Assembly: GCA_021234155.1 (NCBI GenBank)
Contig: JAJEKV010000040.1
Span: forward strand, 9,405,541 to 9,469,540
DNA: 64,000 bases
Source of the DNA: Isoetes taiwanensis
Lineage: Eukaryota > Streptophyta > Lycopodiopsida > Isoetales > Isoetaceae
Reading direction: 5' to 3'
Shown: piece by piece, positions 10,738-58,862 of the stretch
How positions within the stretch are numbered: the first letter of the stretch is position 1
Layout of the letters: every line of letters starts with the position of its first letter
Translations under genes and position numbers: made by a program
Notes under the pieces: generated by a model
What the model saw: the letters and a program-made list of their open reading frames with translations, nothing else
Database searches by the model: none
Told to the model about the DNA's origin: nothing

Positions 10738-13455
10738 CAAAGTTTTAGGTGTTTATCCCAGAAATTTTACATTGGCAAAGAAGAAAAGATAAGAGATTGG
10801 TTCACAAACTGCTGACAAATGGGTACATTACATCAGGACTCGAAGATTTCGTGCTATAAATGAAATGGGTTAGATTGTACAAAATTTCTGGAAAGAGAAC
10901 ACAAAAATTTCTCCAAATGTAAAGGATGTGAGGTCAAGAAGGCTTGATCAAGAAATAAGTGAACATCATGCTGCTCATTATCTCGAGGAGACACATCACT
11001 CGTTGTTGTGGTGATTGTATTATGAACATATGCATTATGTTGTTGTGCATTTCAGATGGCATAGTGAATGCAAGCATAATCTACGATAAGAATGCAATTT
11101 GTATGATGCATGTGTTACAGGTTGCAGATGGTGAGAAATATGATGGGATTGCCTTTGATGCATTTGACAAGCTATTTGCAATCAATATAATTCATGCGAT
11201 AGATGTGGTGCATGATGACGTGATATATGATGCGATATATGATGCATGGCAGATGTGTTGCCATATGATGTAATATACGATGCATATGGTAGATGTGTTG
11301 CAGGATTATGATACATGGCAGATGTGTTGCAAAATTGATGTAATATATAATGCATATGATAGATGTGTTGTAGGATGATGTGATATGATGCTAATGTTGC
11401 AGGGCGTTGTGCTCATGCATGTAGGGTAAGATGATTTGTTGAATGTGTTATGTAGTGATTGTGGTGCCTATTGGTATGGTGGCTGTAATATGTGGTGATT
11501 GTGAGACATAATGGCTTGATGTGGTGAATGTAGTGCATGATGCCACATTACATAATACTTCAGCATTGCTTGTGCCTACAAATTGATAACCCTCTCAATT
11601 GTAAATCCTGCAGATGCAGCTATTTCAAAAGTTCAAGGAAGAACACCCCGACATAAACATTGGACTTAGGATGTTCGAGAAATTAAAGCCATGGTTTGTA
11701 GTGAAGTTGAAGGACTTCAATTCCTGCTGCTGTATTCACCATGTAAGGATGCAAATGCTCGTTGATGGTTTCAATCTAATGAGAAGCAAGCATCCAAAGG
11801 ACTGCAGCTACACTTGCCAAGTGTGCAAGTTAGACTTGAATGGAAGCTGCAGAGCACATGAAGAGAAAATCCCAAGCACAAGCTGCTCTGACTACAAGGC
11901 ATAAGTGAATTCTTTAAGAAAGATTGTATTTTTGATAAGTGCAGTTAGTGTGGGATCAAGAATTTCTCCATTTGTCCAGTTGAGAAGCAGGACATTGGCA
12001 GTTTGATCAAATGGGAATACATTAACTATGAATGGTGTACACTCAAGGATGGTACATCCAAGAAGAAATTGAAACACCAGTACAAGAAAACACTAAGTAA
12101 GAATTTGGTAAATGTTATTCTCGTCAAACCACCACATTTTCCAATTCACAATTTCAGGTACAAGTGGCAGGCTAAGCAATTCAGGGATCTACTGGACGAT
12201 CTGCCACATGATAGTTTCTGTTATGGACTTTGTAGAGAACTATGCATTCAAGGAGCAGAATGAGGTGCAGCCCATGCATTGGATCAATAATCAGATCACT
12301 ATTTTTTTGTCCAGATGACTTGTGGATTAATAAAAAAAACAGGTCAGATGGAAAAGAAGACTCGCTACTATGTGTTTGATGATAGACAACATGACACATT
12401 ATTTGTTCAGCATTGCGTTATGGAACATCATGCCTACATGCAGGACAGGGGGCAAGCTCCTAGAATGCATATTGTTTTCTCTGATGGAGCAGCCTCACAA
12501 TTTACGACAGTCAGGCCATTCTATTTTGTTAGAAGATACACTGCAGATACTCATATAGAGATGATGTGGAATTTCTTTGGTTCCAATCATGGAAAGGATG
12601 AACATGATGGCAAGGCTACAGAGTTTAAAAGGTGGCTAAGAAGTCTGCAAATCAAGCATGAAGGTATGAAGATGGACAATGCATACAAGGTAGTGAAAGT
12701 GGTTCCAGACATATTCACTTGTGGCTTGAAGGAGTGGCAAGAGGTAAAAGGGCACGAGAAGATAAGGAGATATTTATGGGAGATGAAGCTTAAAGACATA
12801 GACAGAAAGAAGAGCTGGGGAGCTGAGACCATACCAAATACTAGGCAATTCCACTCTGTCCATGGATTTAGGGCTGCTCCACTTAGCTGTGCATGTGAGA
12901 GAACTGTCTTGTTTCTGTTCTTATTGTACTGAGGCTCTCTGGGATGAATGTGAGAACAAGGATTATGTCGACAAATGGGAGGTCATCATAGTTGAACCAT
13001 CAATTGTTGTCCATGCAGACAATGCAGAAGTACGCAAGTTCGATTGACCTCTTTATTCTCCCAATGCCAATGTTTTAACTGATGCAGTCAGAGTTGGAGA
13101 CAATTTTGCAGTGGCTGCACCTAAATGTAATAAAGAGGGTGCTAAATTCTGGTTGCTTGTGTGCACCAAAGCAAAATTTGTGGTTAAAGAAAATTTTCAA
13201 ATTAATGATCAATGGTACTTTGCTGGCGAGAGTGTTGTAGATGGTATCTACTATCCGAAGGGCCCAAAACCAACTATACGATATGAGTTGTGCAGAAATG
13301 ATCCAAAGGGTTTAGTGTTCTCCACACAGATCTATGCCATTAGAGTTCCATTAGAGCAAAGAAAACGGGGCAAGGGAACCACCTTCAGATTAGATCCTGC
13401 TGATGAGGCAAAAATACTTGATAACTTGCCAGATGTCTTGTCTGATGACGAATAA
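9890..13455 (+). pseudogene. Decayed transposase-like gene (SDG / HGK..DG family)
   Basis: Fragments read in order on the plus strand. About 10820-10990 encodes 'KWVHYIRTRRFRAINEMG' and 'NFWKENTKISPNVKDV'. At 11614-11904, after acceptor 'aatcctgcag', comes 'MFEKLKPWFVVKLKD' and a Cys-rich block (CCCIHH, C..C.L...C..H). At 12315-12932 comes 'HIVFSDGAASQFTTV', then 'MMWNFFGSNHGKDEHDG'. At 13111-13455 comes a compact C-terminal domain ('KFWLLVCTKAKFVV', ending DNLPDVLSDDE). The order, zinc-binding block, D of SDG and HGK..DG block recall a DDE-type transposase family that is widespread in eukaryotes but that I cannot name. In-frame stops and frame changes between blocks indicate a dead copy. No terminal repeats were found. 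Confidence 0.5.
11120..11560. repeat. Degenerate minisatellite 'gatgtgttgca ... gatgatg'
   Basis: Imperfect repeats of 40-50 bp built on 'catatggtagatgtgttgca' and 'gatgatgtgatatgatg' run through what would be an intron of the transposase-like gene. A related pattern ('atggtg.atgtgatggcaata') reappears at 13530-13660 downstream of that gene. Confidence 0.5.
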
Positions 13456-35521: not shown

Positions 35522-37616
35522 GTTTTTTTTTTTTTTTTTTTTTTTTTTTTGGGAAGGAAGGAAGGAAGGTATTTTTATCGTCCACGGAGACCAATCGGTC
35601 TATGGGACCCAATACAAAAGCGCAGCAAGCGGATTACTACCCAGATTAAAAAACCCCCGCCCAGAAGGGTTTTCGAGGGAAAAACCGTGGCAGCAATCAA
35701 CCTGCTGACAAACTGTTCCAATATACGAAATGCAAAAACACACAAATATATACACTCATGTACCGTGAGTAGTGCACGGTGCCCGGCGGCGGTGAGGGCA
35801 AAGGGCAAAGCTGGGCCGAGATCCGAGTACCTCACCGATATGCGACCCGAGCACGCGTCTTGGCGGTGTGTTCATCGGCAAATGTAGGGGCAAGTTCGGT
35901 CATTACTAAGGGAATGTATATCGCCCGGATCGCCCGAATCTTTGGGCAACTCGGAAAGTGTGAGACTCATCCTCAATGGCACCCGTTTGACAAAGACCGA
36001 CAGAGTCCGGTTCCGGGCTGGTTCCCCAATCCACCAGCCTGCGCCCCGATGTAAGATGGTGGGGCACTGCGTATGAATGGAGGCAATGAGTCCGTGACTT
36101 TTTCGTGGGCACCGGGAACGAACGTAGAGTCATGGGCCCCGCCAACGCTGGTTGATGTGCTCCTTTGTAATGGGCCGCTTTGACCTCGCTTCTAGAGCCG
36201 GTCCGTTAGAGCTTTGCCAAGGAAGCAAGCCGGCTGTGTACTCCCCGCAGTCGCCACGACTCCACTCGGTCCAATCCACCGCGACGATCTGGCGGTTCTC
36301 GCGACGCTCCATCCGGCGAACCATCGATCTCTCTTTACCCTCCAACAGCCCCCGAGCCGGCCGGGCCCATTGCCATATAGCGTAGCAAAAGGGAGTCGAA
36401 AGCATCACCCATATTAACCACTTTTCAAAATAGCCATGTGTCTATCAATACCGCTCAGTTTAAGAATCCAGCTTTCCCCGCAGCTAGAACCGATAGGGGA
36501 CCTGAAGGTTTCACCCCAAGTGCCCATGCCAAAATGCCTTACGCACTGCTCCAAGTCATTCCGTGTCGCCAAAGAGGCGCCCGGGGCCCCAAACCTCGAC
36601 CCCTCTGAAGGGCGAGGCTCGACCCGGCGCAAACGCAGATGTGGCCTGATGGCCCCAATCATAGAGCTCGCACGGGTGGTATTTGTTATTACGCGATGGC
36701 ATATTTTTTCCGGCCTGGCATGCCATAGCGGATGGGACGCCTCCCAACAGCGAGGAGGAGGGAAACTCCACCCCTAGGTACTTGTAGGTGGGCGTGACCT
36801 CCACAAGCTGTCCCCGATATGTGAGTGCAGGAGGCGTGGGGTGGCGTGAAGAGGATATGAGAACCACCCTAGTCTTGGCTAGATTCACGCCGCATGTCAG
36901 AGCTGGCGAGAATGTGCCTAGGGCATCCGGATGAGATCGCGATAGCTTCCGGGTGTGGGCGGAAAGGTCAACATCGTCCGCATAGATGATGAGCCGGATG
37001 ATGACCCGCAAAAAGGCGTATGCCATCCCCCATGCTTTCAGAAGCCGGGGCTCTAAACCGGTCAATGTAGAGGCCAAAAAGTGTTGGTGAGAGGGGGCCT
37101 TAGGACCCATTGGTGAATGCTTGGCCCGTCGGTACGCATCCGCCAAAACAACTCTCATACAACCTTTTGTATATGGCATTACGCTTGCGGGCAGCTGTGA
37201 TTGATGCGGTCTAGCCCATAGCTTTTCAGGGGACCGTATCAAAAGCCTTGAAGTCCACAAAGCAACAATACAAGTCCTGCCGATGGTTTGGTTGTCTTCA
37301 ATCGCCCGCGGTGTAAAGATATGGCCCGGTCGTTGAGTGGCGGGGGTCTAAAGCTTTGCTTGTGTGAGGGCTGCGCACACATGTACGCCTCCCCCGGTGG
37401 GGTCAAGCTATTTGCTCGAGGCTGCCCGATACAGTTTGGCAAATACTGAACTGACCATGATCGTCCGGTAATTGGCCGGACAGTGTGGGTCGCCCGCCTT
37501 GTGAATGGGAACAACCCTGCTTGTGGTCCATTATCGGGGGAAACCTTCCTGCAATGCTCTGTTGAACAGGGTAGTGAGGATCGGCACCAGCGGTAGTGAG
37601 GATCGGCACCAGGCAT
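35522..37616 (-). mobile_element. LINE with RT domain and (TTCC)n plus poly(A) 3' end
   Basis: On the minus strand the 3' end reads '...gacgataaaaataccttcc', (TTCC)n and about 29 A (35522-35550). Upstream, frame 36556-37260 contains the RT catalytic motif 'LIIYADDVDLSAHT' (about 36975-36990), 'GVNLAKTRVVLISSSRHP', 'YKYLGVEF' and the downstream 'ELYDWGHQATSAFAPGRASP'. Frame 37239-37616 holds earlier RT motifs in broken frames. It is 5'-truncated, with no endonuclease visible. The same family appears at 20330, 52180 and 58000. GC content is much higher than its surroundings. Multiple frame breaks make it inactive. Confidence 0.85.
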
Positions 37617-38515
37617 TCATTGAGTAATGCAATGTGTCAACTTCGAAGAGCCATTTATACACTAAACAATTTCTTTATGTTATCAACGTGTCAACTTCTT
37701 TATGTCAGCAATAGGGTTAGTCCTTATTTTGCGTGTTGGACAAGGGTTATTCCACAGGAGATTAAAGTTGCAAGTTGTAATAAGCTAACTTGCTGCCAAT
37801 GGACAAGCTTACTTATAGGATGTTTTGAAATGTAATTCCAATTTGTATCCTGAATACATAATAATATTATTATGCATATTAGCATACATTTTATTATTGT
37901 TTACACATTTGTTTGTCAATTTGTAATATAAGCATAAGATTTGTGATTGTTATTGCTTTCTTTAATTTATTCGTTTTATTACTTGCTACAAGGTTGCATT
38001 CGACTCTAAACATATTTCAACGGTTTGGGATTCCATGGTATATTTCTAAGGTATTTGAGGCTACAAGGCAACCTATCAAAGAAGAAGGCGTGCTCGACTA
38101 GGGATATTTACACTTTGTTGTATTCTACAACATACGATATCCCATGTTCTTCACTGTATGAGTATTATTTCATACTCCTGACCCATTTTCCATGTAGTTC
38201 CATTGCAACATTTTCTAAATATGGAGCTCGTATAATATAGAATTACCCTTAGGCCCCGAAGGGGCCAAACAAAATTTTGGATCCTTGGTCATGTTGTCCT
38301 TGTTGTTCAACATTTCTAGGTACTCTAGCTGCATACACATTAGATTATACTCTGATGATTAGTTCATTGTTTTGACATTGCATTGGTTGTTTGATGATAT
38401 AATTGTGGGGACAAGATACATCAAAAGAACATAATTGAGATTATCATTTACATTCATGAATATAATAATACTTATACATTCAAGGAGTTAGTCATAGAAA
38501 TTGAAAATATTTTTA
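37617..38515. other. AT-rich stretch, no gene
   Basis: No coding signal. It contains a short GC palindrome 'ggccccgaaggggcc' near 38255. The left end of the neighbouring LTR-bearing element may fall here, but no second LTR was found. Confidence 0.4.
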
Positions 38516-38518
38516 ATT

Positions 38519-40029
38519 CTATTCTTGAAATTTCTTCAAATAGTCGGGGTTGTCCTCCAAAACTTTCTTGACTTGGGCTGTGCCGATTGTTCGCCCTAGG
38601 TTCCTGAGGATATTTGTGGCCGTGCCTCCTTGAAATGCGGTCACCAAGTCTTCAATCCTCCTTTCTGATGTATAGGCTGCAGTCACTGCCAACCTGCCCT
38701 GCCGTCTATAGGGAACTGCGAAGTCGAAGATGCTCAATGCTATTGTTCTCTTGACGAGGATGACATGGTCGATGTTTGGGGCCATACGAGCATGACTTCC
38801 GAATCTTGAGAGAGCGATGAGCATGAAGACTCCTTCTTCACCCCCTGGGCTGAATTGGCGGTGTATAACTGCTATCCTTCCATTTATGAGCAAAGGGAGG
38901 TAGAACCTAAGGGCTTTGTCATGCCCTGCCTCTCCGCCTGATGTGAAGGCTGCTCTGTGTCCTCCGGAGTACTCATCAACTGGTACTTCCACCATCTCTC
39001 TGTAGTCACGGTACATGGAATGTGTCAGGTTGATGCTTCTTTCAGCTAATGCTGGTGCCGATGCCGATGTGCTAGGTAGGAGTGTGGACGTTGATTTTCC
39101 TTTGATTCCCATGCGCTCTTGAATTGCCAAGAACTCCTCTTCCGACAGCAACTCTCGCTCAGCCATCATCTGTCTGATGCCGGTGTAGGCTTCAATATCT
39201 GTCAATGTCTGGCCGGTATATGTTCTGGCTTCCCTTATGCTGATGGGAAAGTCCTAAGTTTCTCTGTTGATGAAGTCATCGAGATCAAGGTCTTGCCATA
39301 GGAGATGCAGAAGTTCGTCTACCCTGTAGCCCCTATCTCGGCACTCTGGGAGGTTCTTGATATCATGGAGGCTTAAGTATGCCTCTCCTTGTATAATCAC
39401 TGGGGTCAAGCTTGTAATTCCTTGCCCAAGTGGTGGGGCTATTCTTGTGGCTCTGAGCCCTTCTTCAAAACTTTGGAGCTGCTGCTCTGCTTGTTGTCTT
39501 TCCTGCACTAAGTCGATATCTTCTGTATCCGACTCGCGTTCTTCTTCTTCTTCTTCCTCTGCCTCCTCGTATGCAAGGCGCATCTGTTCTTCTTCAGCTG
39601 CTACCATGGCCATTGGCTCTATGTCTAAGGGTTGCACAGATGGTTCTCCTATCTGAGTTTGGGCTCGAAGAGATAGGAAAATAGCTACGGCTGCATTGTA
39701 AGAAAAGTATCTCCTCCTATTGGCAGATATGGACATGTAATTAGGTAAGCGACTAGCCTTGTTTTCTAGGTACTTATCTATGTTATGTTTTGCAGTGCTA
39801 TCTTGAGGGCCATGCTTGGTGCAAAATATCCTATGCAAGGTGGGAGCTCTACTAGAGAAGGTCCTATCTTGGCATGGAACTCAGACATAATGTCTTGGTA
39901 GAAAGGGGTGACATTGATGGTGGCCTCCACATCAACCTCCTTCTGGAAGACGGCGAAGACGGAGTTGATGTCGGCCTCGGCCACATGAGCTGTGGCACTG
40001 TACCATCGCCTAAATGCAGTGGTTGCCAT
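38519..40029 (-). pseudogene. Unrecognised protein unit of the LTR-bearing element
   Basis: Three adjacent reading frames (39778-40029, 39254-39838, 38519-39205) belong to this fossil unit. The first starts 'MATTAFRRWYSATAHVAEAD'. The middle one has a Glu-rich coiled-coil-like stretch (EEAEEEEEEERESD). The last contains 'RFYLPLLINGRIAVIHRQFS' and 'GGTATNILRNLGRTIG'. I recognise no domain. A TATA box ('gcctataagtag', minus strand, about 40137-40148) lies about 100 bp upstream of the first ATG. A capsid- or nucleoprotein-like role is conceivable from size and composition alone, but nothing supports it directly. Confidence 0.4.
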
Positions 40030-40320
40030 GGTCTATGAGCAGCTGAGGATATCAAACAGATGGGGAAGCGCCTTAGGCGCCTGGAAAATCGGCTTGGATT
40101 GAGAAGCAAAGGTGTAGGATGCAAATGAGGGTTGTGGGCTACTTATAGGCAAAACCCTAATTTTAGGAAATTTTAGGATTTGGGAAAAACCTATGATTCT
40201 AAGGTAATGCTATGCAAAAGACAGGCTAATCAAGCTAACGAGTACATCCTAAGGATCCTCTTGCAACAAATTCCATCTAATTTGGTGAAAGTTAGGCCAA
40301 GTTAGCACAATTTAAGTGTG

Positions 40321-40797
40321 ACCACTCACACAGTGCGCGAGGAGCACTTTTGAGCATGGGCAAAAGTGGTCTGGGCGCACTCTGTGAGGGGTGGGACCTT
40401 GTTTAGATCAAAGATGATGCCAAACATGCAAACTAAGGATAAAATCCTGCATATCTCATCGAGATAGGTGGGATTGTGTCCTTACTTGCTTCATTTGGAC
40501 AAGTTTTGGCCTAGATCAGTGCTCGACCACTCACACAGTGCGCGGGGAGCACTTTTGAGCCTGGTCAAAATTGGTCTGGGCGCACTCTGTGAGGGGTGGG
40601 GCTCCGTTTGAGTTTGGGTTGGCCAATTTCTACAATCTAAGGGTCAAATCATACTAAACAAAGTAAGCTGAGTCGAATGGTGTCCTTACTTTCTGCATTT
40701 GGACAAGTTTTGGCATAGATCAGTGCTCGACCACTCACACAGTATGCGGGGAGCGCATGGTCAAAATTGGTCTTGGCGCACTCTGTGAGGGGTGGGG
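40321..40797. repeat. Three double-hairpin repeats (HP1-HP3)
   Basis: Copies at 40321-40394, 40526-40600 and 40730-40797. Each has outer arms 'ccactcacacagtgcgc' and 'gcgcactctgtgagggg' (inverted repeats with two mismatches). HP1 shows an inner pair 'cacttttg' / 'caaaagtg' around GAGCATGGG. HP2 and HP3 also share about 50 bp of leading sequence ('tttggacaagttttggc', gatcagtgctcgacc), so the true unit is about 205 bp. They lie directly upstream of the unit at 38519-40029. Confidence 0.9.
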
Positions 40798-40934
40798 AAA
40801 AAAACACTGAGTTTAGCTCCAAATTTGTTAATTTCAAATGCAGAACTTAGTAATACACCCTACTTAAACATGATTTAACACATTACTTCAACAAAATCAT
40901 AAATTTGTATTTACAAGAATTATTTACAACAGAC

Positions 40935-41366
40935 TTAATAGTATTCCTTCTTTATGTATTTAACTAGCTTCAAGTCCTTGGGCATGCATGTCACCCTTTT
41001 GGCATGGATTGCACACGCTACCGAGTCTTCAAAACTTTGTACTACGTGCTGCTCGGCTGCCTCCTGGAGCGCTAGTAGCATGTCATCCGTGACCCTCTTT
41101 GTGTTGTCGAATTCTTGTAATATTTCGCGAGTGAGTCTCGCGAAGGAGGCTCTTGGTATCAAAAGTCCATAGCTCCTCTGGAAATGTCTAACCTCCCGAG
41201 CAGCTCTGGAAAAACGTGAGTCAGCCTTTCTTCTAATCGGCTTCCTCGGAGGTGCTGGTCTCTCTGGGGGCGGCTTTAAGGTGTCCTTCTTCGTCGGCCG
41301 TCTTCCCTCCACATAGGCTACTCTGTGCTCCTCGTAATATTTGGAGTACGCCTCGTACATCTTCAT
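40935..41366 (-). pseudogene. Histone-H3-fold reading frame in the LTR-bearing element
   Basis: This 143-codon frame has a basic, Pro-rich start and then a clear histone H3 core. Against plant H3, 'AAREVRHFQRSYGLLIPRAS' aligns with [20 protein letters not shown], 'FARLTREILQEF' with FQRLVREIAQDF, 'ALQEAAEQHVVQSFEDS' with ALQEAAEAYLVGLFEDT, and 'CAIHAKRVTCMPKDLKL' with CAIHAKRVTIMPKDIQL. Helices alpha-N to alpha-3 are all represented (about residues 52-139). Loop 1 is the same length as canonical H3, so the CENH3-type insertion is absent. The ARTKQTARKS tail is absent; the unit upstream (to about 42150) is instead rich in Lys, Arg and Glu. It is part of a broken element, so I treat it as a fossil, though the core itself is well kept. 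Confidence 0.85.
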
Positions 41367-42234
41367 GTACTAGGTGTACTCCTTGACTTTCTTCCTGTAC
41401 TCAAGCTCCTGCTTGAGTACGTATGATTCCCTGTGGTCTCGGCTTTTTCTTGTCCTGTGCCAGGTGCTTCAGGGATGGCCACCTGACCTGCTCCTCCTCT
41501 TCATTTGCTGGGTTCGAGGGTCCCGAGCCCTCCCCCGGGGCGGAAACCCCTATCTCCTCATCCGACTCAGTGTCACACGAGGATGGAAGCTTATCGGGCT
41601 ATTGCTCCCGAATGACGACTCCTTTGGCGGGAGTCGTCTTAAGCTTCCTCTTCGTATCCTTTGGTAGTACGGGGTCTTTCCCCTTGTCTGCCCTCAGCTT
41701 TGCCCGCTCCTCCCGTCGCTTTTTCTTCTCCTCCTTCTTCTACTTCCTTTCCTCCTTCTTCTTGCGCCTCTCCTCCTTTTCCCTGCGGCGCTCCTCCTTT
41801 GACTTCTTCTCCTCTGCTTGCTCGCCATCCCTCTTCCTCTTCTTGCTCTTCTTGTCGAGTTTTGCAAACTCCCTCTCGAGCTCCCTCCTTAGCTCCTCTG
41901 CTGCTTCTTCATCTGCAATTTCCTCTGCTCTCTCTTCAAGGTCTTGGGGGTGCTCCTCCTCCTGGTGCTCTTGGGCCTCCTCCTCCCCGACGGCTCCAGG
42001 GCGTGCGTGTTGGCTGAGCCTCCTGCTCCCTTCGGCTCGCTCCCGAGCACTGCCCGTCGCCTTCTCTGTTGGCGGCTAGCTCCCCGGGCCACATAAACTG
42101 GGGGGCATTATTTTGCAAGGTGATGCATTTTGGTGTGGGCCATATTTTGGTTTGAAGCAATCCGAGCTCTGGCGCCTAAAAATCGCCTTCTGGGACGAGC
42201 TGTTTGCTGGAGGCGCTGAAAACAAATGAGGAAC

Positions 42235-42260: not shown

Positions 42261-42360
42261 TAATTTAGGGTTTGGACCTGCATTTCCATATTAGGCCAAT
42301 CTAGAAGGTATTAGTATAGATATGAGGAGTACATTAGGTTTATTTAGCCAAAAAGCATCC

Positions 42361-42645
42361 ACCACTCACACAGTGCGCGAGGAGCAGTTCTGAGCATAGG
42401 CAGAATTGGTCTGGGCGCACTCTGTGAGGGGTTACCTCTTTTTGGGTCTAATTTTCAATTTACAAGGGGTTTCTTAGTGTTTTAACATGCAAACTAGCTA
42501 GAATCTAAATAATAACCTGAACTGCACTGTTAGATTAGCTACATTATGCATCTAACTAGGTCAACATGGGTCCACCAGTCACACAGTGCGCGGGGAGCAA
42601 TTCTGAGCATGGGCAAAATTGGTCTGGGCGCACTCTGTGAGGGGT
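42361..42645. repeat. Two double-hairpin repeats (HP4-HP5)
   Basis: Copies at 42361-42432 and 42572-42645, with the same arms as HP1-HP3. The inner loop differs (cagttctgagcat..gcagaattg). The spacing is 211 bp. They lie between the primer-binding site and the TATA box of the H3-bearing unit. Confidence 0.9.
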
Positions 42646-42837
42646 CACCTCTTTTTGGACAATTTTGGTTGGGTTTTCGCTAAATCTTATTACTAACTTA
42701 GCATTAACCTATTTACTACACTAGAAATTGGAAATTTTTTTCCAATTTTCGAGGTTTCTGCTTGGGTGGCTATTTCCCAAGACTTGAAGTCTATTGTTAG
42801 TCCTATGGGAAAAAAAATGGTCAGTGCTCGATCTTGG

Positions 42838-42864
42838 TCTACCAAGATCATGCTCTGATATCAC
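42838..42864 (-). other. Primer-binding site and adjoining palindrome
   Basis: Just inside the LTR the minus strand reads 'gtgatatcagagcatg', one mismatch from the TGGTATCAGAGC complement of plant initiator tRNA-Met. It runs directly into the perfect palindrome 'gatcttggtagaccaagatc' (42838-42857). Confidence 0.75.
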
Positions 42865-44451
42865 TGTGACGTCCCCTGCTTCTTATACGATGCACATATC
42901 CTATTCGAAGACGGAGCATTCCCCGTGACAGCCAACTGGCAGGGGCCATCCACCTGACTCCACTCCCAGTGGAATGAGCCAGCAAGGGAAGAGTGGATAT
43001 GTCATTCACCCGTCTCCCATCGGGTCGACCTATCTGCGGAAGCATGAACAAACATGAGCACATAACACAATATAACAATACAATCACCTCGAAGGGTGAA
43101 ACATCATATCCTCATCAATATAACAACATCAACACGAACAACAACAGCAGAGGGAATTCCTACCCAGGGCTCGGACTCAAGGGTATGACTGACGGCTTGG
43201 GCCTCCAAGAGTCATTGCAGACAGAATTCATGGCACATGGATTTGGCTGGCATAAGAACATGGCTAAGGGTAGTCCACTCCATCCGCCCCTCCTGTGCAC
43301 ACTTTGCAAATGGGGTTGAAAAGTGTTGGGACCGGACCGTAGCCTGCCAGGTGCATAGCCAAAAGGGCTACTACTGGGTTGCATCTCCCCAGCCCTGATG
43401 AGGCAGGAAGAGAGTCGCCTCTCCTCCAGGGGCTTCCATGCCCAACACAGGTGACTAGAGGGGCACTGCCCTTATTCGACTTGAACCCAATGGAGAGTGA
43501 CGCATCACTCCACGGGTGTCGAGCTCATGCCTTGCCCACACGCAGTGGCAAGGCATTAAGCCTAGTCCACAGGGATCCCCGATAGGCTTTACACACCAGA
43601 GGGATCGTTCTGTGTTGGGACAAGTACCCCATTGTTCTGCCGGTCTAGCCCCTCAACCCACAACCCGGTGGGCTCAATAATTGGGAGCTAGTAGGCTATC
43701 TATAATCATCTGCTACACAAGCTTTAGGCCTCTACCCTCCTTCCCAATACATAGAGGTCACAGAGTGAAATACCAACATCATCACAGACTGAAATGAAGA
43801 ACATCATCTAATCTATCTACCTAAACATCCAGAGTTAGGTTCCTTACTTAGGGCTTATGATCTTGGGATCTACAAGGCCTCTATGGCTGAATGAATATGC
43901 TAAACTACCTTACTGTCTAGCCCAAAGACGGCTTTGCACAATAGAATGACTGATTACCTGGTCCTTGACCTGCTCCAGATCCTCGGAATGCATCCATGTC
44001 TCTGATCTTGCTGAAGATGGCTGCTACTCAACGATCTGTTGTGCAAAGGCGGCTTTACAGAGCCTGACAATGCGAATTTGGTTCTTAGCTTGGCCGAAAT
44101 GGCTCAAGAGAACCCTAAAATGCGAAAAGGGAAGGGAGCTCTATGAAAACCCTAAAATGCAAGGAGAAGAAAAGGGTTTAGGGTTTAAGGGGAAGCCCTT
44201 TTATAGAAACCCTTAGGGTTAGGTTAGACATTGGCCAAATGGGATTTAGCCATTTGGCAATGGGGTCCATGGGGTTAACAATTGTGTATGTTTATTTAAC
44301 ACACAACATTCGAAGTTGCCCCCTAGGTGCAACTCTTGCCCCCTAGGTGCAACCTATTACGGCCACCGAGTACATGTCATCTGTGACATGTACGAGTGAC
44401 GTGGCAGTATAATATACGTATTTGGGGCATATATTATGCTGGAACGTCACA
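42865..44451 (-). repeat. Long terminal repeat, 1587 bp
   Basis: On the minus strand it begins 'tgtgacgttcc' and ends 'gggacgtcaca', short inverted ends with TG...CA, next to a tRNA-Met-like primer site. A TATA box ('tttctataaaaggg', about 44195-44207) lies 245 bp in, placing a start near 44170. The U3 part holds a direct repeat 'ttgccccctaggtgcaac' (44315-44362). Only this one LTR is in the window, so age by LTR comparison is not possible here. Confidence 0.75.
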
Positions 44452-52179: not shown

Positions 52180-53845
52180 AGTTAAGACCCCCCTCCCCCG
52201 CGTAGCCGCTCAGGGACAACAACCTTTCCACGTAACCGGTGGTTTGATGCGAAGTGTAAAGAACGCAAGCGCCAGCTCCGTCACATTCTGGATCCAGGTA
52301 CCCGCTTGCAGGCCACCACACAGTACCGCGCCCATCTGAAGGAGACAAAGGCGCGGTACCTTGCCAGGCACCAGGGGAAGATGTTCGGCCTGCTGGACAC
52401 TCATCCTCGAACCTTTTGGCGCAGAGTGCTTCGAAGGCCAGCCCAGCCTACAGGGGACATCACACCCGGGCAGTGGGAGAAGTACTTGCAGCAGCTCTAT
52501 GACCCATCAGGGACGCGTACGCCCATACCCCCACAGGATGGCCCCCCATTGGTTCTCGCGGAGGAGGATGTTGTGGAGGGCCTGCAACGGCTGGCTAATG
52601 GGAAGGCGTACCGACCCTCGACGGTATGCAGTGCCGAAGTTACTCAAATGGGCGTGGCCGGCCGGTCGGTGCGATCCTCACTACCCCATTCAACGCAGCA
52701 TTGCGGGGAAGGTTTCCCGACAATGGACCACAAGCGTGGTTGTCCCCATTCACAAGGCGGGCAACCCACACCGTCGGAACCATTCTGGGACGATCATGGT
52801 CGATTCAAGATTTGTCAAAATGTTATGGCATTCTCGAAAGCAGCAGATTGACCCACCGGGCGTAGGCGCCAGATGTGCGAGCCCTCACACAAGTAGGCTT
52901 TAGACCCCGCCACTCAACGATTGACCATATCTTTACTGCAGATCGATTGAAGATGGTACCAAACCATGGCATGACTTGTATTGCCGCTTTGTGGACTTGA
53001 AGGCTTTGTCACGATCCCGGGAAAAGTGGGCTAGGATGCGTCAAATGGGGCTACGCTGCGCAATGCGAGAATGCCATATACAAGCTGTATGGGAGTTGTT
53101 TTGGCGGGATCACGACCAGCGGGCCAAGCATTCACGGTAGTATCGGGTCGGCGGGGCTGCCCCCTCTCACCAACACTTTTGGCCTCTACATTGACGGTTA
53201 GAGCCCGGCTTATCGAGCATGGGGGGATGGCATACAGCTTTGCACCCAGGTCATCCCAACTCATTTTATGCGGGGCGATGTTGACCTTATGGCCCACACC
53301 CCGGAAGCTATGCGGTCTCATCATCGGATGCCCTAGACACGATTCTGCAAAGCTCTGAACATGCGGCGTGAATCCGCCAAGACCGGTGGTGGTTCTCATA
53401 TCCTCTTCACGCCACCCCCGCCTCCCTGAACTCACATATCGAGGGGCGACTGCGGAGGTCACGCCCACCTACAAGTACCTAGGGGTGGAGTTCCCCTCCT
53501 CGGGCTTCTGTTGGGAGACGTCCATCCGCTTATTGGTGACAGGAAGGCCGGAGCGCTTTATGCCATGCTAACAACAAATACCACCAGTGAGCTCTATGAT
53601 TGGGGCCATCGGTCCACATCTGCTTTGGCGCCCGGGTCGAAACAGGCCCTTCATCGGGGAATTGAGGTTTGGGGCCCGCCGCCTCTTTTGGCGACACGGA
53701 ATGACTTGGAGCAAAAGTGAAGGCATTTGGCACGCGTGCACTTGGGGTGAAACCTTCAGTCCCCTATCAGATTCTGCTGCAGGAAACTGGATTCTTGCCG
53801 CTTCAGCGGACAGCCCTTGATAGACACATCAATGAATGTATGGTT
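52180..53845 (+). mobile_element. LINE of the same family as 35522-37616, decayed
   Basis: Frame 52306-52851 reads 'TKARYLARHQGKMFGLLDTH' and 'EEDVVEGLQRLANGKA', the linker before RT. Later segments give 'AGNPHRRNHSGTIMVDSRFV', 'GFRPRHSTIDHIFTA' and 'TYRGATAEVTPTYKYLGVEF', then 'ELYDWGHRSTSALAPG', co-linear with the minus-strand copy. The YADD box is lost and the frame changes repeatedly. The 3' end is missing: sequence stops at 'cagcccttgatagacacatc' (about 53830), short of the (TTCC)n tail found in other copies. GC-rich relative to its surroundings. Confidence 0.85.
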
Positions 53846-54129: not shown

Positions 54130-56620
54130 TCCCCGTCATGCTGAGGTCCAGAATGTGTTGCTGCATAATTGACCCAACCTTGTTGTGTCCAATCTCATGG
54201 AATTCCCAGGGCCAATATCAGCGTGTGGCTGTGACTCACCCTCCCTGTTGACCAAGTCCCAGGTCTTCAATGGTGACCTGATTGTACTAATGGAGTTTGG
54301 GACAGGTCTGACCAGAGGCAGAAAGCCTTCTATGCTAACATCCTGCACACCAGCAATGTCTCCCGAGCATAAGTGGGTGTCTTCCAAGCTGCACATGACA
54401 TGCATTTCCTCTTCACTGTCATGGGCAATTGCATGATCACTCATGACAGGTGTGGTCAATCCACTAACCTGCTGACCTTCAAGTTCCATGGTGAATGATG
54501 TTTTCACTATTGGATCCCTGATTGGACTCAACTCTCTCATTCTGTTTCTAACCTCTAACCTTTTGCTTCTCACCTCATCACTCATTGGCCTCTGGAAGCT
54601 AAAGACTGCAGCCACTCTTGAAATGCCCCTGGGGTACATGAGTGCTCTAAGTCTAGCAGTAGAGGCTTCAAATTCTGCTTCAGCCTTCTTCCTATTTTTC
54701 CTTTCTTCCCTATTCTGTTGAGCTCTCTTGGCAGCCTCTTGCCTTTCCAATTTCCTTCTTGCAATTTCGAGTTTCCTGGCAGCAACTTGCTCATTCTTAA
54801 GTTTTGCAGCCTCAGCCCTTCTAGCCCTCTCAGCAGCCAAGGCCTCACAGAAGCCATCACTAGAGATGTGCACCCTTCCACTCAGGTCTGGGATTAAACC
54901 CCGATTCCTTGCCCTCGTGGCCTGAGATGGATGTAGGCCTGTGATGTCCTCACGTCTGTAGGGAACTGCACACATGCATGTGGTGTTCCCATGTCACCAG
55001 ATGGTACCATATGCTGATGTGAGGATCTCAAGGTTGCATCAATGACCTCACGATCCCCATCTCGTGCGCCTTCATCGTGAGATGGATGCACATCATGGCT
55101 GATAATATCCACATGGTCAGCTACATGTTCATGGCCACCAACTAGCTGCTGGTCACCTTGCTCACCAGCTGGACGTGGTGCCTCCCATAACTGTTGCAAG
55201 TCAGCCATGTTGAATTGCTCCAATTCCTTTTCCCCCAAGTTGGCTGCATCTTCTTGGTCTCCACTTTGCGTAACCTGCTCTATGGGCACTCTACCAAACC
55301 TGCCACTTTCCTGGCCTGGCTTAACCTTGTCTGAGTTGAATGGCCAAATCCCAGTTGCTCTAAACCCAGCCTTGATGTTGCTAGGTGTCAACCCTGATTC
55401 AATGGCCTGTGATACGAGCTCTGCAATGTCCTCCCTCTTCGGCTCTGTCCTCCCTTTGCTAAACATGTAAGAAGATTTCAATCTTTTGAAGGCTGCCTTG
55501 AATGGTGCAAAACATGCAACATCCAAAGGTTGCAACCTATGTGATGTGTGGGGTGGAAGCATGGCAAAATGTATGCCCATTTCCTTAGCTGCCAAAATAA
55601 CCTCCAATTCCACATCGTTGCCATGGCCATCCAATATTATCAGGTGTGGCCTTGATGGAGATACTCCACCAGGAACCCTAGCAACAAAATGTGACAACCA
55701 AGACTTGAACAATTCTGTTGCCATCCAGGCCGAGGGCTGGACAGCTTGAATTACCCCTTCCTCACATCTGACAATGTTATCTTGTCTCATCCGAGTACCC
55801 TTGAAGATGTATAAATTAGGTATCTTAAACCCTTCAGCATTTACACATACTAGTATGGTAACCCATTCCCTATTGTTCATGACAACCTCATTTACCCTAT
55901 TCTCCCCTTTCCTACCTATGATCTTCATTCCCTTCACCTTCCCAGCTTGAATGCAAGTCTCATCAGCATTCCAGATCCTAGAGGCCGGGAAATCGAACTC
56001 GTCATAGATTTGTCTCAGACCAGCATAGAAGTTATCCAGATTCTCTTGTGTCATAGCACGAGCCCGAGCAATATCTAATGTCTTCTGCAACCCATTCCCT
56101 GCTCGGCCCTGGACAATGCCCAGTTGACTAACTCTTCCTCTTGTAGAGTCGTTAGAATTTGTAGACTACCAGTCTGCTTATGAGTTATACGGCCATACAG
56201 CCAGTCCCTTATTGTTGACTCTGGGATTCCAGACCTTCTAGATGCCTATCTAACAGATATACCACACTCACTTACCTCATCCAAGATGTCTGCATTTGAT
56301 CTTCAGTCCACTGCCCTTGTTTGCTTGGCCTCCTTGGCATTATGGGAGATGCAGCACTGATTTGTGGTGCCCGATGCTTCCTCCTTGGCGCAGTGACTCG
56401 TTTCCTTGATGTAGGTACTCTATTACTGGCTTCACCATCGTCCCCTCTCCGACCTCTTGTGGAAACCATGTCTGATATCGTGCTCCTCACAGCCTGATAT
56501 CGATAAGCTTGAAATTTGGAAGGTGAAGTTGCCTTTTATTCTGTTGGGAGCCATAGCGGGAGCTTGGTATTCAAATTGGACTTCGGTAATCGAGTGCTCT
56601 GGAATGGGCGCGAATTCAAG
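54130..56620 (-). mobile_element. Pogo/CENP-B-type DNA transposon, transposase gene nearly complete
   Basis: Read on the minus strand. An N-terminal HTH (psq/CENP-B type) comprises 'RRPSKQGQWTEDQMQTS' (about 56320-56280) and 'GIPESTIRDWLYGRI'. A 398-codon frame (54894-56090) holds the DDE_1 catalytic domain. Its three acidic residues are visible in 'WNADETCIQAG', 'LIILDGHGNDVELE' and 'HTSHRLQPLDVACFAPFKAA' (family form D...D...D). A Lys/Arg/Ala-rich coiled coil follows in frame 54136-54975. Three frame changes (about 56284, 56105 and 54940) and one TAG in the HTH region break the gene, so it is inactive but fairly young. Terminal repeats and the TA duplication were not found. Confidence 0.8.
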
Positions 56621-57990: not shown

Positions 57991-58862
57991 CAAGGAAAGA
58001 AGGAAGGAAGAAAGGAAGGAAGGTATTTTTATCGTTCAGGGAGACCAATCGGTCTATGGGACCCAATACAAAAGCGCAGCAAGCGGATTACTACCCGGAT
58101 TAAAAAACCCCCGTCCCAAAGGGTTTTCGAGGGAAAAACCATGGCAAAACAATCAGCCCTGTGGCGACAAACCGTTCAATATCTGAAATACAAAAACACA
58201 CAAATATATACACTCATGTACAGGTACCCATAGTGCCCGATCGAAAGCAGCTAGGCGGGGAACAAAGGTGGGCTCGCAGATCGATTACCTCCCGAATGTA
58301 CGACGACCCTAGGGGCACGACCGGCGGTGTGTTCATCAGCAAATGTAGGGGCAAGTCCGCCATACTAAGGGAACATATCCGCCCGGATCGATTTGAATCA
58401 CGGCAACTCGGAAAGTGTGAGACTCATCCTCAATGGCACCCGTTTGATAAAGCCCGACAGAGCCCGTCTGGCGGGCTCCCCAATCCCACCGCCGCCTCGA
58501 TCGCGGAGATGGTGGGCACACTTGCGGCGAATGGAGGCAATGAGTCTCACGCTTTTGAGGGCGGTGGGAACGCTAGTAGAGTCGGGCCGGACCAGCGGGG
58601 TTGATGTGCTCCTTGTAATGGCTGCGTTTTGACCGCCTAGAGCTGGGGTGTCCCGAGCTTGCCAAGGAAGCAAGCGTCGTGTATTCCCCGCAAGCCTGCC
58701 ACGATCGGCCTCTGGTCCACTGCGCACGATCTGTGTTCTCGCACATTCCATCGGGCGAACCACTAAATCTCTCTTACCCCTCCAACGGGCCACAGAGCTG
58801 CCTGGGCCCATTGCCATAGCGTAAGCCAGGTGCGGGAGCCGAGCATCATCCATATTAACCAC
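57991..58862 (-). mobile_element. LINE 3' end, 5'-truncated (GGAA-tailed family)
   Basis: It starts (plus view) with 'gaaggaaggaagaaaggaag' and 'tatttttatcgttcagggag', then follows the LINE at 35551-36425 closely to 'catcatccatattaaccact' (58845-58862, compare 36400-36425). Only the 3' roughly 870 bp are present. No poly(T) precedes the GGAA tract here, unlike the copy at 35522. Confidence 0.85.

Follow-up and report, generated by a model that had tools for sequence, protein, structure and literature searches.

The closest precedent we found for a mobile element with its own histone H3 is the H3-like gene of a fungal hAT DNA transposon. In Pyrenophora tritici-repentis this element carries H3L genes, 26 of them nearly identical, and in the accessible part of that account their function is given as unproven (PMC3538342). 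Our search of open-licence full texts found no description of an LTR retrotransposon that carries its own histone H3. The accessible sections on plant Ty3/Gypsy chromoviruses describe LTRs, a primer-binding site (PBS), a gag with a zinc knuckle, reverse transcriptase (RT), RNase H and an integrase with a C-terminal chromodomain; they mention extra open reading frames, none of them a histone (PMC2864245, PMC12786077). The Isoetes element presented here has all of these parts and differs, as far as those sections go, in having two extra genes ahead of gag, the first of which is a histone H3. A further point of reference is the H3K9M mutation, which according to the excerpted report is dominant: it traps Clr4 and thereby blocks H3K9 methylation, and the trap is released by phosphorylation of Ser10 or by S10D (PMC5030085).

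The locus was met in the genome of Isoetes taiwanensis, which was searched over 1,658,258,908 bases in 1,110 contigs. As expected of a land plant, this genome gave 91 NAC-family matches, against none in 14 control genomes. The window, meaning the whole stretch of 64,000 nucleotides that was analysed, is C1046:9405541-9469540. The initial annotation described a 143-codon frame with an H3 fold at 40935-41366, downstream of an LTR and a primer site, and all three features are present (Table 1). The frame is open on the minus strand; a plus-strand reading of the same interval is ruled out by stops. It matches the Pfam Histone family (PF00125) with an E-value of 5.5e-22 and, among solved chains, those of H3, the best being histone H3.3 (E 3.3e-22, residues 21-141). 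Single-sequence structure models of the frame (low confidence, mean pLDDT 54.9) and of an ORF2 piece are both too poor to use. We regard it as nearly certain that the frame is a degraded copy of a retroelement's first gene, situated between PBS and gag and encoding an H3 variant taken from a host H3-type gene. Judged by its sequence, the element is a Ty3/Gypsy LTR retrotransposon of the chromovirus type (integrase with chromodomain) in a lycophyte host.

Table 1. Remains of the element in the window, in window coordinates.
Feature	Position	Strand	Observation
5' LTR	42865..44451	-	1,587 bp, TG...CA ends; 77-85% match to LTRs of complete copies
Primer-binding site TGATATCAGAGC	42852..42863	-	one change from TGGTATCAGAGC of L036 and L037
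Hairpin repeat between PBS and H3 gene	42571..42658	.	sequence repeats
Hairpin repeat between PBS and H3 gene	42358..42445	.	sequence repeats; RNA fold z -4.0
Whole decayed H3-type gene, about 400 codons	40935..42143	-	tail remnant, charged insert, linker, H3 fold
Open C-terminal 143-codon frame with H3 fold	40935..41366	-	frame listing, Pfam, solved chains
Three hairpin repeats between H3 gene and ORF2	40318..40800	.	about 40318-40400, 40523-40605 and 40725-40800; third diverged
ORF2, second pre-gag gene	38519..40029	-	frame change near 39784 splits ORF2; tblastn 76-80% to 506-aa ORF2 of L035
gag, first codons	38284..38374	-	element similarity stops at 38284

On similarity to other copies, the window copy is a 5' element fragment that extends from 44451 to about 38284. 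Since similarity ends there, gag beyond its first codons, pol and the 3' LTR are missing. Read on the minus strand, the ends of the LTR are TGTGACG...CGTCACA, and the H3 gene lies 721 bp inward of the LTR. Only the C-terminal third of this gene is open. Stops and frameshifts break the frame upstream of 41366, and the H3 tail has decayed to a start codon and a remnant at 42143. Two hairpin repeats precede the H3 gene and three more separate it from ORF2, at a spacing of about 205-213 bp (window 40318-40800 and 42358-42658; loci L031, L033 and L035-L037). Five sampled hairpins all fold far better than shuffles, with z from -4.0 to -6.7 (the latter at 40318-40400), and in the inner stem the sequence varies while pairing is kept, as if the structure itself mattered. 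Elsewhere the window holds a 398-codon frame for a DDE_1 (pogo-like) transposase (54894-56090, minus strand; Pfam E 7e-22), inverted stretches with a 75-88% match and fragments resembling non-LTR reverse transcriptase (36532-37616, minus, and 52306-53728, plus), and direct repeats that are 94-95% alike and 22.45 kb apart (35552-36009 and 58006-58466). Similar frames with FFGSNHGK-type motifs occur on the plus strand at window 12315-12932 and at L039:71-748 and perhaps encode a mobile-element protein; a Pfam search of the window frame gave no match.

The anatomy of the element is best read from complete copies. That on contig C1048 (L037 and L040) is 13.3 kb long and has the order LTR-PBS-H3 gene-ORF2-gag-RT/RNase H/integrase-chromodomain-LTR. 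Its LTRs, at 2332419-2334018 and 2344172-2345751, are 97.4% identical by BLAST, with 19 substitutions in 1,579 aligned bases, and a 5-bp target duplication (TSD), TTGAG, stands on either side of the copy. The primer site TGGTATCAGAGC lies directly 3' of the LTR in L036 and L037, with one change in the window copy and in L033; we take sites of this kind to be of the initiator-Met tRNA type. The H3 frame of the C1048 copy has 397 codons. Pfam matches identify gag (Retrotrans_gag 6e-15, Ty3_capsid 1e-14); the CCHC letters of its zinc knuckle are present, with Pfam knuckle matches below cut-offs. In both the C1048 and C1018 copies pol has the order RT-RNase H-integrase and ends in a chromodomain (E 1e-10 in C1048). 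The pol of the C1048 copy is split across more than one frame, so this copy establishes an intact H3 gene and not an intact element. The C1018 copy (L035, L038 and L039) has the same order, with LTRs 95.4% alike. Upstream of both of its LTRs is a 748-bp stretch with an antisense, more diverged H3-type C-terminus (L035:7626-8379 and L038:1-748; 98.8% alike), which replaces the final portion of the internal region ahead of the 3' LTR.

Elements of this kind fall into two families, A, to which the window copy belongs, and B. A family B example on contig C1100 (L064) contains a PBS, an H3 fusion frame, ORF2-like frames, gag and pieces of pol in the same order as family A. Compared with the family A element, its gag has 53% identity, its pol pieces 76-79%, and its ORF2-like product 24% over 245 residues (E 4e-5). 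ORF2 is conserved (506 codons, L035:1662-3182), with this distant relative in the same position in family B, and a Pfam search of it gave no match.

Both families are abundant. A search with the window-frame protein returned matches at E 8.3e-66 or better for all 150 candidates scored out of 9,943 first-look candidates, and one with the C1048 H3 frame gave 110 matches (104 main rows and six short extra pieces) from the 104 candidates scored out of 49,322. Many rows of these H3-type searches hold stops and are broken copies. With a canonical H3 query, 15 of the 150 scored candidates were host loci, with 97-99% identity; the other 135 showed 72-87%, and many of them lie within open frames of 400-567 codons. 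Exact codon-level patterns were found at 335 places for family A (HAKRVTCMP[K/R]D) and at 526 for family B (IMPKDLALARR), each with a backward control of 0; these counts are of motifs, not of intact genes. Annotated H3 genes in plant genomes can thus be element genes: by this exact-pattern count, there are more than fifty of the latter for each of the 15 host H3 loci. A general histone expansion was rejected within a comparison that covered H3 and H4, H4 not being expanded (69 first-look candidates, 43 matches, 16 full-length at 99% or more). Among viral contigs, 47 pattern matches yielded no confirmed relative.

Intact family A proteins have 385-421 residues, against 136 in canonical H3. They begin with an exact H3 tail (MARTKQTARK) and end in the H3 fold, with roughly 260 extra, mostly charged residues in between; in finer detail, about 200 mostly charged residues come first and a conserved linker next. 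The initial annotation, made from the decayed copy, had a charged segment standing instead of the H3 tail; this was wrong, as intact copies hold the ARTKQTAR start and the charged segment lies between tail and fold. Aligned by eye, the fold keeps C110, H113, D123, R116, T118, R69, R72, R83 and K122 and changes R49, R53, K56, R63, K79 and F84, the losses including some DNA-contact residues (R63P, K56Q, R49Q). Family B proteins have a different N-terminal part of about 300 residues ahead of a fold that is almost canonical (Pfam E about 1e-41). The ARTKQTAR start is absent from the six family B proteins compared; this family has only a weak ARKS-like stretch.

The family A tail varies at two positions. 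Residue 9 is Lys, Ile or Met according to subfamily, and Ser10 is replaced. Among 42 copies, found by a pattern that demands K4-Q5 at the start, residue 9 is K in 16, I in 20, M in four and T in one, with one unreadable; residue 10, in 41 copies, is V in 34, T in four, I in three and never Ser. K9 is kept in A1, the subfamily to which the complete TSD-flanked copy belongs. Exact K9M tails were counted at 59 places, where they are encoded in 15 synonymous ways, and members of this subfamily (L052-L055) have Val10. The pattern fixes the protein letters, so it demonstrates the synonymous spread and not the absence of other forms.

Element H3 is under purifying selection, of a strength equal to that on gag. 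In L035-L037 the pN/pS ratio is 0.08 for the H3 frame, 0.09 for gag and 0.19 for ORF2. Pooled pN/pS values for A1 are 0.035/0.179 in the tail, 0.048/0.266 in the insert, 0.034/0.265 in the linker and 0.023/0.253 in the fold (nine of 11 copies; local frame changes excluded L045 and L049). The fold gives 0.071/0.292 in the K9M group (four copies) and 0.037/0.608 in family B (six copies), where the N-terminal part gives 0.220/0.621. In the diverged family A set the pooled value for the fold is 0.119/0.699; mean dS is unreliable there because saturated pairs dropped out. Eleven mostly decayed copies like that in the window have a ratio of 0.19.

Because selection kept the H3 protein intact, the elements may meddle with the chromatin that silences them. 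We think it likely that element H3 acts on host chromatin in some way. On balance we also favour the fuller account, in which a chromovirus lineage captured H3 and selection keeps the gene, while the element amplifies, for such action. More tentatively, the protein might work against silencing by host H3K9 methylation. It would then enter the nucleus and pair with H4, or at least display its H3 tail, and it would blunt H3K9 methylation and, with it, the DNA methylation that comes after H3K9 methylation in plants. Subfamilies with K9M or K9I would trap a SET-domain methyltransferase; those with K9 would offer a decoy substrate in which the residue next to K9, replacing Ser10, cannot be phosphorylated. 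The element chromodomain may also bind the element H3 tail. Compared by eye with the cage of HP1, this chromodomain retains one aromatic residue of three, an argument against a simple reading of K9 methylation.

Taken further, the protein would be a natural counterpart of an oncohistone, a weapon in which Met or Ile at residue 9 and an unphosphorylatable residue 10 trap H3K9 methyltransferases and lift silencing, with the K9 subfamilies serving as decoy and chromodomain bait. We consider this doubtful. Met or Ile at residue 9 without Ser at residue 10 looks as if made for methyltransferase trapping, and H3K9I may be an inhibitor as well as H3K9M; our literature search did not turn up such a role for H3K9I. 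A1 keeps K9, so trapping by K9M or K9I cannot be the general function, and the A1 copies would need another account, as decoy, chromodomain bait or plain nucleosome variant. The missing ARTKQTAR start of family B and the DNA-contact residues lost from the family A fold also weigh against the fuller account.

Rather unlikely, in our view, is a role in targeting, in which element H3 would be incorporated into certain chromatin of centromere-like or heterochromatic type, to which the integrase chromodomain would then guide new copies. The chromodomain is present, and the tree of the fold has some bearing on this reading. Family A forms one clade (100/99) on a long stem (0.66), and family B is placed next to canonical H3 (98/92). 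With 94/87, which is not a starred branch, family A groups on the side of plant CENH3; the tree included two plant CENH3 rows and left out L015, L019 and L055, whose fold the motif search missed. This grouping is unsure because the branches are long, those of the CENH3 rows being 0.37-0.59. The host CENH3 was not found with an Arabidopsis query among 150 scored candidates, all of them host H3 or H3-type loci, and element H3 copies are spread over very many contigs. In favour of targeting, an integrase motif of a centromeric retrotransposon has been modelled with CENH3, according to the available part of a review (PMC12786077). The same tree bears on origin. Families A and B as one clade are not rejected (AU p 0.098), although this is not the best tree. 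We favour a single capture, since the gene stands at the same position in both families and their gag and pol are related; two separate captures would be less likely.

The protein might instead condense element RNA or cDNA in the particle, as a basic histone-like packaging factor. The long Lys/Arg/Glu-rich segment, the DNA binding of the fold in other H3s and a gene position near gag would suit this, but gag already has a zinc knuckle and the exact ARTKQTAR tail, of use to chromatin enzymes and readers, would be left unexplained, and we judge packaging improbable. It is very improbable that the gene is a passive passenger, acquired as a host H3 gene and copied along with the element but without function. 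Transposons do capture host genes and many copies are broken, yet pN/pS of H3 is as low as that of gag in the same elements, and H3 has been kept in two families and several subfamilies.

The initial annotation had offered a captured host gene turned element gene or a host H3 variant into which an LTR later inserted, and had proposed to map whether H3 matches lie beside the LTR. We compared 40 of 44 LTR rows (four short pieces were left out) with all 104 main H3 rows. On the same strand, 11 LTRs lie upstream of an H3 gene at 710-999 bp and eight downstream at 8.1-11.6 kb; 21 have no partner among the listed rows. In the eight pairs with an H3 match extending to query residue 1-3, the upstream distance is 710-728 bp; at the three longest distances, the H3 match begins inside the query. 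With strands flipped, the control gave no pair upstream and none downstream. At matches >150 bp, the hairpin segment of the 5' leader is present in 26 of the 30 loci of the window-frame search, window copy included, and the segment towards ORF2 in 23. With hundreds of loci, the frame is not confined to a single genomic locus, which the initial annotation had named as evidence against an element gene. An ordinary host H3-variant gene beside a later insertion, allowed by the window copy alone as a fragment without a 3' LTR, has practically no chance of being correct, because a complete TSD-flanked copy contains the H3 gene, the spacing is constant in 11 of 11 paired 5' LTRs and there are hundreds of loci. 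The same observations support a captured host H3 that became an element gene.

If the protein acts on chromatin, a single gene makes it possible to test the arms race between transposons and H3K9 silencing and also provides natural variants of H3 at residues 9 and 10. As far as the consulted part of the literature describes them, known systems resemble the Isoetes element in single respects. The Pyrenophora hAT likewise multiplies an H3-like gene beside a transposition gene and an open reading frame of unknown function; it is a DNA transposon with terminal inverted repeats, whereas in Isoetes an LTR retrotransposon with gag, pol and a chromodomain exists in hundreds of diverged copies, purifying selection on them was measured, and a long insert separates tail from fold. 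A giant Ty3/Gypsy element of orchids also captured a host regulatory domain, in that case an m6A RNA demethylase rather than a histone, according to the excerpt available (PMC9289625). Giant viruses such as Medusavirus, in the part of the source consulted, are mobile genomes with their own histones too, but Medusavirus is a DNA virus whose own genome is served by a full set of four core histones, and in Isoetes H3 is expanded and H4 is not (PMC11500106). Like the L052-L055 subfamily, the H3K9M histone of the excerpted report has Met in place of Lys9, and the surrounding tail context is the same; it is a laboratory mutation of a host H3, whereas the Isoetes protein is a natural element product with Val10 and a long insert behind the tail (PMC5030085).
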